A program made the translations under genes and the position numbers. 64,000 bases of DNA, taken from positions 496,001 to 560,000 of the forward strand of contig NZ_FQXQ01000003.1 of the NCBI RefSeq assembly GCF_900130035.1, written 5' to 3'. Positions within the stretch are counted from its first letter, which is position 1; each line of letters starts with the position of its first letter. A model generated the notes under the pieces. The model did not search any database and was not told the origin of the DNA. It saw nothing but the letters and a program-made list of their open reading frames with translations. This DNA comes from Wenyingzhuangia marina (GTDB lineage Bacteria > Bacteroidota > Bacteroidia > Flavobacteriales > Flavobacteriaceae). Of the stretch, positions 30,760 to 32,290 are shown in pieces.

Positions 30760-30904
30760 AAGTATAGTAGTTCGTGTAAAAAAACATAAAAATAGTTAAA
30801 AAACAAGAGGTTTGGTGTTTATATTATAAAAACTAATACCATGGAAGAAGACGAGTTTTTTGTTTTTTATAATTAACAGTTCTGATTTATAACTCCTGAT
30901 TTAT

Positions 30905-30980
30905 ATATGGTAAAAAGCATATATTTTTATTTATATGATAAAAAGCATATATTTGTACATATATGATAAAAAGCATATAA
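30905..30980. repeat. three tandem operator-like repeats, period exactly 28 bp
   Basis: Copies at 30905-30924, 30933-30952 and 30961-30980 share ATATGRTAAAAAGCATATA. Each contains the dyad TATATG-N8-CATATA. The spacing puts all copies on nearly the same helix geometry (28 bp is about 2.7 turns). A perfect -7 box lies in the second gap region and the SatD-like start codon comes 3 nt after the last copy. They look like binding sites for a dimeric regulator that covers the promoter. Confidence 0.8.
30948..30955 (+). promoter_or_regulatory. -7 box of the SatD/DUF3307 operon
   Basis: TATATTTG matches TAnnTTTG. It lies within the end of the second 28-bp repeat and 28 nt before the ATG at 30984, so a protein bound to the repeats would block it. 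Confidence 0.65.
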
Positions 30981-30983
30981 AAA

Positions 30984-31586
30984 ATGAAAGCAGTCATCAC
31001 AGCAGATATCATCAATTCAAGAGAGGTTTCTCCAGAAATTTGGTTAAATACTTTAAAAAGTACTTTGCTAAACATAGGGGAGGAGTATAGTGTTTGGGAA
31101 GTATTTCGTGGAGATAGTATTCAGATGATAATAGAACCTCAAAAAGCGTTAGAAGTAGCGGTTTTATTAAAGTCAGCAATCAAACAAATTCCAAATATTG
31201 ACATTAGAATAGGAATTGGTATTGGAGAAGTTACTTATCAATCAGAAAAAGTAACGACTTCTAATGGACCTGCATTTGTAAATGCTGGTGAAGCTTTTGA
31301 TGGTTTAAAGAAAAGTACCTTGTTCATAAAAACGCCATGGGGAGACTTTGATAAAACAATCAATATTATGCTAAATTTAGCGACTTTAACCATGGATTAT
31401 TGGAAACCAGCCATGGCAGAAATTGTTTATGAACAATTACAAAATCCAGAAAGTAAACAAATAGAAATTGCTCAAGCTTTAAATAAAAAACAAAGTAATG
31501 TGAGTTATAGTTTAAAAAAGGCAGGATATGAGGAAATACAAGATTGTCTTCAGTTTTACAAACAGCAAATAGGAGGGTTATGTTAG
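30984..31586 (+). CDS. SatD-like protein: degenerate nucleotidyl-cyclase-like domain plus helix-turn-helix
   Basis: 200 aa. The length, start and downstream DUF3307 neighbour match the SatD family. By eye the first ~110 residues follow class III cyclase order: ADIINS (Asp8) as the first metal block, RGDSIQ (Asp44) as the second, then IRIGIGIGEV (75-83) and GPAFVNAGEAFDGLK (95-109). In the last block the catalytic Asn seems kept (Asn100), but the Arg expected four residues on is replaced. The C-terminus (about 158-180, IEIAQALNKKQSNVSYSLKK) is a helix-turn-helix. It probably binds the three dyads upstream. Cyclase-like activity is a hypothesis only. Its stop overlaps the next start by 7 bp. 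Confidence 0.75.
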   Translation: MKAVITADIINSREVSPEIWLNTLKSTLLNIGEEYSVWEVFRGDSIQMIIEPQKALEVAVLLKSAIKQIPNIDIRIGIGIGEVTYQSEKVTTSNGPAFVNAGEAFDGLKKSTLFIKTPWGDFDKTINIMLNLATLTMDYWKPAMAEIVYEQLQNPESKQIEIAQALNKKQSNVSYSLKKAGYEEIQDCLQFYKQQIGGLC

Positions 31587-32290
31587 TACTAAAATTATTG
31601 ATAGCTCATGTATTAGGTGATTTTGTATTACAACCTAACAAATGGGTAAAACATAAGGAAAGGAAAAAATGGGCTTCCAAATATTTGTATATCCATACTG
31701 CAATTCATGCTTTGTTATTGTTGATTGTACTTGGTTTTCAAATAAAATATTTATGGAAAATTATAATAATTAGTATTTCTCATTTGGTGATAGATGGAAT
31801 TAAGTTGCTAAAACCTATTAAAAATAGTCGAATATTATTTTTTGCAGATCAAATAGCACATTTAACAGTAATTGGATTGGTTGTCAGGCAATGGAGTGAT
31901 TTAAATATAGATTTTAGTACTGTTGTTTCTGAACAAAACTTATTACTTGTATTGTCTTTGTTACTGTTAACATCGGTAACTTCTATTGTGTTAAAAGTGG
32001 TTTTTAGTGTATGGAATAAGGAGATAGAAGAAGTAAGTAAAGAAGATAGCTCATTGAAAAATGCAGGAAAATACATCGGAATTTTAGAACGTTTGTTTGT
32101 ATTTGCTTTTGTCGTGCTGAATCAATGGCAAGCAATTGGTTTTTTATTAGCTGCAAAATCGGTGTTCCGTTTTGGGGATTTAACCAAAGCCAAGGATAGA
32201 AAATTAACTGAATATATATTGGTGGGAACTTTGTTAAGTTTTGGAATCGCCATTGTGATAGGTTTGACTTATCAATATTTGAGCTTTTAA
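31580..32290 (+). CDS. DUF3307 integral membrane protein
   Basis: 236 aa from the ATG at 31580 (MLVLKLLIAHVLGDFVLQP), the conserved N-terminus of DUF3307. A start at 31544 would extend it with 12 non-conserved residues and lie deep in the upstream gene. The pattern HVLGDFVLQPNKWVKHK and HLVIDGIKL with several membrane helices is typical. His and Asp in the first and third helices could bind metal. Function is unknown. It overlaps satD-like by 7 bp, so the two are translationally coupled. Confidence 0.85.
   Translation: MLVLKLLIAHVLGDFVLQPNKWVKHKERKKWASKYLYIHTAIHALLLLIVLGFQIKYLWKIIIISISHLVIDGIKLLKPIKNSRILFFADQIAHLTVIGLVVRQWSDLNIDFSTVVSEQNLLLVLSLLLLTSVTSIVLKVVFSVWNKEIEEVSKEDSSLKNAGKYIGILERLFVFAFVVLNQWQAIGFLLAAKSVFRFGDLTKAKDRKLTEYILVGTLLSFGIAIVIGLTYQYLSF

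Follow-up and report, generated by a model that had tools for sequence, protein, structure and literature searches.

In type II toxin-antitoxin operons the regulator is encoded first, the second gene overlaps it, and repeated palindromes stand at the promoter. A palm-type protein is paired with a membrane protein in Pycsar and in Panoptes (mCpol with 2TM-beta), and the palm enzyme of Panoptes keeps a toxic membrane protein in check (PMC12657230). The SatD family (PF16264; satD of the Streptococcus mutans sat operon) was named for secretion and acid tolerance, as cited in PMC11323703. In Streptococcus pyogenes, satD is present in 178 of 249 genomes and is reported to stand alone among accessory genes in the highest essentiality class (PMC11323703). 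The literature searched, which included few subscription journals, held no description of an operator array, a recognition code or a palm fold for this family, and no paper describing an arrangement of SatD and array such as that reported here.

We analyzed a satD locus of Wenyingzhuangia marina lying in a window of 64,000 nucleotides, the whole stretch of DNA under analysis. The gene (30984..31586, + strand) encodes 200 aa, assigned by Pfam PF16264, AlphaFold and Foldseek to a palm-like nucleotide-binding domain (about residues 1-137) and a C-terminal helix-turn-helix (HTH). It is followed by a gene for a DUF3307 membrane protein (31580..32290, + strand; 236 aa), the start of which overlaps the end of satD. 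This pair resembles type II toxin-antitoxin operons in its regulator-first overlap and in the palindrome operator at its promoter, and it differs from them in having a palm domain and no toxin-wrapping tail, as well as in its widespread single-copy distribution. Like Panoptes and Pycsar, it joins a palm-type protein to a membrane protein. Unlike them, it possesses an HTH on SatD and an operator array, its DUF3307 partner matches no solved effector fold, and neither protein has a PADLOC match.

The predicted SatD palm and its DUF3307 partner

We found that the window protein belongs to the SatD family by profile score (PF16264; 33.1 bits against a cut-off of 29, over residues 5-181), and the same profile matches 52 of 59 aligned relatives. 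A search of the window's whole genome with PF16264 gave no match, though hmmscan matches SatD, and a protein query found satD. The closest named homologues are those of W. gilva (90% identity), W. heitensis (70%) and W. aestuarii (67%); within the few kb compared, only one of four tested neighbor genes recurred close to satD in a further named Wenyingzhuangia species. Profile scans gave weak HTH matches at residues 152-179, and other members of the family match HTH models with E values down to about 1e-6. A sequence search of the PDB with the SatD family profile returned weak HTH-type matches only.

The original prediction took SatD for a degenerate class III nucleotidyl cyclase fused to an HTH, a reading that structure prediction and fold search support. 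The AlphaFold model, built with 59 homologues, has a pLDDT of 97 and a pTM of 0.92; its elements run beta-alpha-beta-beta-alpha-beta-alpha-beta and then into helices, with the HTH at about residues 159-179. Foldseek with this model retrieved the class III cyclase Ma1120, GGDEF domains, Cas10 and mCpol at probabilities of 0.94-1.00, so that a cyclase-type palm was obtained as expected. All four motifs on which the prediction was built are present: ADIINS at residues 7-12, RGDSIQ at 42-47, IRIGIGIGEV at 74-83 and GPAFVNAGEAF at 95-105. Both Asp residues assigned to metal binding are at the places named, and they persist among the 144 non-redundant SatD homologues and loci to which all conservation counts refer (Asp8 in 141, Asp44 in 142), their equivalence to the cyclase Asp residues being drawn from motif register. 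Neither of the findings that would speak against the prediction, a fold unrelated to the palm or loss of the Asp pair across homologues, was encountered. D8, D44, R75, Q47, G81 and G95 are nearly invariant. Two homologues (L081 and L112) have lost both Asp residues, and they lack a downstream DUF3307 gene and a significant upstream array; this joint loss of Asp pair, partner and array is suggestive, with two cases to date.

The remaining cyclase features fared less evenly. Residue 100 is Asn in the window protein, as predicted, and it is Asn in only 55 of the 144 homologues and thus not a feature of the family. The catalytic Arg is indeed replaced, by Ala at position 104, where C, T, A, L, G and K are the six commonest residues and Arg is not among them; the adjacent position 103 is R in 39 of 144. 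In the profile-profile comparison with class III cyclases the expected motifs align, while significance is poor (hhalign probability 4.3%, E 0.0095), and we rejected this comparison as proof of homology. SatD is therefore like a class III cyclase such as Ma1120 (PDB 4wpa; Foldseek probability 1.00, TM by target about 0.5) in its predicted fold and in the two Asp residues within matching motifs, and unlike one in its variable Asn and Arg positions, its non-significant profile similarity and its attached HTH. The class III cyclase family PF00211 has no match anywhere in the window's genome. It is most likely that the palm still binds nucleotide and metal, and class III-type cyclase chemistry is unlikely for the window protein. 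We regard the cyclase-fold reading as largely right.

The partner gene encodes a clear DUF3307 protein (PF11750; 99.6 bits against a cut-off of 23, E 1.8e-28). Its translational coupling to satD, as originally proposed, is borne out by its best start, an ATG at 31580 that overlaps the end of satD by 7 nt, an overlap type that is among the commonest satD-DUF3307 arrangements in the family. A DUF3307 gene lies downstream of satD in 140 of 144 loci, and 129 loci have it within 20 bp. The model of the protein is all-helical (pLDDT 93) and contains no beta-barrel, and a fold search against solved structures gave no match (best E 0.95). Nearly invariant His, Asp, Gln and Lys positions form a pattern which suggests that DUF3307 may be a membrane metalloenzyme. 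The near-obligate pairing fits the proposal that SatD acts with the membrane protein, while the sequence evidence speaks in the first place for autoregulation of transcription by way of an array upstream of satD.

The array upstream of satD and its recognition helix

Upstream of satD are three 20-bp inverted repeats TATATGRTAAAAAGCATATA, starting at 30904, 30932 and 30960 and spaced by exactly 28 bp; the original prediction made no mention of repeats at 30904-30979. Unit 1 (30904..30923, + strand) is the inverted repeat TATATGGTAAAAAGCATATA, with half-sites TATATG and CATATA 14 bp apart. Unit 2 (30932..30951, + strand; TATATGATAAAAAGCATATA) follows 28 bp after it, and unit 3 (30960..30979, + strand), also TATATGATAAAAAGCATATA, stops 4 bp short of the satD start codon. 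The palindrome has 3 matches in the window against 0.10 expected, and none of 100 shuffles reaches 3. An Rfam search of the satD leader returned no match, and a known RNA element there was rejected.

Homologous satD loci possess arrays at the same place with a different sequence. A free tandem-similarity scan (periods of 20-40 over the 150 bp upstream of satD in 144 loci) revealed a significant array in 118 loci, against none of 131 AT-rich control stretches taken from the same loci. The period in these 118 is always 28 (94 loci) or 29 (24 loci). When inverted 6-mers are counted without bias, the commonest offset is 14 bp, with 249 cases against 8 in controls. This count is the independent test of the alternation of half-site orientation, which occurs every 14 bp inside a palindrome and every 14 or 15 bp between palindromes when half-sites are defined by their 14-bp spacing. 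Among the 26 loci in which no significant array was found, some keep scattered half-sites, and others lie close behind a same-strand gene or fall in one divergent clade.

Arrays of this geometry, with other sequences, also accompany satD beyond Bacteroidota in Gammaproteobacterial plasmid loci, and on viral contigs. The Vibrio lentus plasmid locus carries TTAGCC..GGCTAA three times at 28 bp, a Pseudoalteromonas locus carries two units at 28 bp, and three viral-contig loci have 29-bp arrays of GGCCGG or ACAGCC units. The satD-DUF3307 pair with 28-bp arrays is found on Gammaproteobacterial plasmids at L158:3871-5375 and L157:3927-5382, the record of the Pseudoalteromonas plasmid copy being without annotation. 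On a viral contig (L159:1518-5379) the pair, with a 29-bp array, adjoins ORFs resembling phage structural genes. About 12 operator units at 29-bp spacing stand at L193:661-1040 in a genome of another class (G403), where the array adjoins a run of N and the true number of units may be larger.

Half-site sequence varies by clade. In 109 loci the half-site consists of wTAT and then a triplet that varies (TAG, AAG, CTG, ATG, CGG, TAC, CGT, TCC and others), the clade types including TTAT+ATG and those with TAG, CTG, CGG, TAC, TCC and AAG. We compared this triplet with the 200 residue columns of SatD. The highest mutual information with the triplet belongs to residues 175, 169 and 172; residues 171 and 176 are in the top six, and fourth place goes to residue 134, which is outside the HTH. 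In identity-matched pairs, the scores are 0.60 for residue 175, 0.54 for 169 and 0.39 for 171, against 0.25 for the SatD column that follows and 0.20 for the best column of DUF3307, a control that shares the history of SatD. The covarying residues 169, 171, 172, 175 and 176 belong to a stretch of specificity residues 169-179 (31488..31520, + strand), made up of the recognition helix (170-179) and the residue just before it. Glu175 pairs with C at -7 in 25 of 26 cases, Gln175 goes with A at -6, and Lys or Arg at 175 often goes with C at -5, which is G on the other strand. These associations make chemical sense.

When relatives sharing more than 60% identity are left out, the triplet is correctly predicted from five recognition-helix residues in 56% of cases, compared with 18% (maximum 28%) for five random variable residues and 32% for the whole-protein nearest neighbor, the five residues being somewhat favored since they were picked from the same data. 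At the strictest limit of 45% the advantage over the whole-protein nearest neighbor is gone (40 vs 38%). On a tree built from the palm and DUF3307 with the HTH excluded, a minimum of 46 triplet changes is required. In about 6 of 8 independent pairs a change of E175 goes along with one of C at -7, and the reverse hardly ever occurs (median p 0.03); Q175 with A, and K or R175 with C, follow the same trend, with pairs too few for significance. It is established by comparison of these loci that the predicted HTH of SatD reads the array upstream of its own gene. This autoregulatory array, with a decodable and repeatedly re-specified recognition code, is a stronger conclusion than the cyclase fold.

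Candidate promoter and probable control of the operon

A candidate -7 promoter element, TATATTTG (30948..30955, + strand), overlaps the end of unit 2 and lies between units 2 and 3. It is of the type TAnnTTTG, which we take to be the -7 promoter motif of Bacteroidota. TAnnTTTG occurs in 72 of 119 array loci compared with 130 of 686 controls, an excess that is partly built in because the ATA of the array itself contributes to the motif. Its positions cluster at +8, +36 and -20 from the last array center, all equal to 8 modulo 28, so its phase relative to the array is mostly fixed across loci. A sigma-70 promoter scan gave no more hits than shuffled sequence and was set aside.

The only palindrome array in the window's genome is the one at satD, and outside it there are only two isolated sites with one mismatch. 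Most exact palindromes in six other genomes are likewise at satD, the exceptions being a few lone sites and, in G356, one array present in duplicate. The far copy in that genome carries in addition a duplicated stretch of satD leader, with no satD; between the two copies (L192:2711-13893) lie a type I restriction-modification operon and an AbiEi/AbiEii toxin-antitoxin pair. Restriction of the array mainly to satD suggests autoregulation of one operon rather than a regulon, and the regulon reading was rejected. The locus looks like a single autoregulated satD-DUF3307 operon, with covariation of the HTH with the array, held-out prediction of the triplet, and an array at the predicted promoter. 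As bound SatD would cover both promoter and start site, repression is the expected outcome, and SatD is most likely a cooperative autorepressor of satD-DUF3307.

Alternative readings and implications

A toxin-antitoxin-like system, in which overproduced DUF3307 is harmful, SatD represses and perhaps neutralizes it, and the array serves cooperative autoregulation as in type II systems, is a rather unlikely account with several facts on its side. The two genes lie in order within 20 bp in the 129 loci counted above, overlapping, behind an autoregulatory array; the pair also travels on plasmids and viral contigs; and among the accessory genes of S. pyogenes, satD alone is reported as essential (PMC11323703). 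An essential yet lineage-dispensable regulator is what would be expected of the repressor or antitoxin of a harmful partner, and we treat this as a lead, the S. pyogenes result having come without direct involvement of DUF3307. The distribution speaks rather for a housekeeping role, since satD-DUF3307 is common among Flavobacteriaceae, with 132 of 211 good genomes containing it, and nearly always single copy, and the conserved residues of DUF3307 are enzyme-like.

Binding to the array could instead make SatD an activator that recruits polymerase from upstream of the promoter. Some loci have their strong units upstream of the promoter motif, and in some the center of the last strong palindrome precedes the motif by 35-36 bp. 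By contrast, the -7 motif of the window overlaps an array unit, as do those of the largest group of motif-bearing loci; this fits occlusion, and we consider activation improbable.

A comparably low probability attaches to SatD as an active nucleotidyl cyclase, or a cyclic-oligonucleotide synthase of the GGDEF or mCpol kind, whose product controls a DUF3307 effector in the manner of Pycsar or Panoptes while the HTH regulates. The breadth of palm matches, the nearly invariant Asp pair, the membrane partner and the restraint of a membrane toxin by the Panoptes palm enzyme (PMC12657230) agree with such a role, against which stand the variable Asn and Arg positions, a DUF3307 protein of no known effector fold, and the PADLOC result. 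The PADLOC search with SatD and DUF3307, taken up to E 10, gave no match, and Pycsar or any other catalogued defense system was rejected. With an ordinary-looking neighborhood in the window and an unmatched DUF3307 fold as well, the original comparison with Pycsar was not supported. As to Panoptes, we found a relation of fold only (mCpol 9pd0, E 8.8e-3), DUF3307 being all-helical with no beta-barrel. A role of the array in partition, replication or integration, instead of as an operator, is hardly credible, for although partition loci typically carry tandem iterons and two array copies in one genome (L192) flank an island of type I restriction-modification and AbiE genes, the array stands at the start of satD in 118 of 144 mostly chromosomal loci, carries a promoter motif and covaries with the SatD recognition helix.

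Cumulatively, we favor a reading of satD-DUF3307 as a self-contained two-gene module with the following steps: 1) SatD, as is strongly suggested, binds cooperatively along the array, covers the built-in promoter and represses its own operon; 2) the palm, with its two Asp residues and the conserved R42, K63 and R75, would bind nucleotide and metal and act as a sensor and oligomerization domain; and 3) a change in the ligand, perhaps made or consumed by DUF3307, would release SatD and so induce the pair. As a whole explanation, an HTH that reads its own array and represses the operon while the palm senses a ligand is in our judgment probable. More tentatively, and short of calling it probable, we propose that SatD may form a distinct class of one-component regulator, which joins a palm of the polymerase or cyclase type to an HTH, polymerizes on alternating half-sites at a 14-bp pitch, and controls DUF3307, a putative membrane metalloenzyme, as a module of the addiction-like or guard kind, its operator and helix having been re-specified dozens of times.

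Two widespread families of obscure role thereby gain an immediately testable function. The dozens of matched switches of operator and recognition helix on a fixed scaffold constitute a natural data set for DNA-binding codes. If the palm senses a nucleotide, a fold of the second-messenger type would be tied directly to the control of transcription, and repression of the partner gene would offer a reason for the essentiality of satD where it is present in S. pyogenes.
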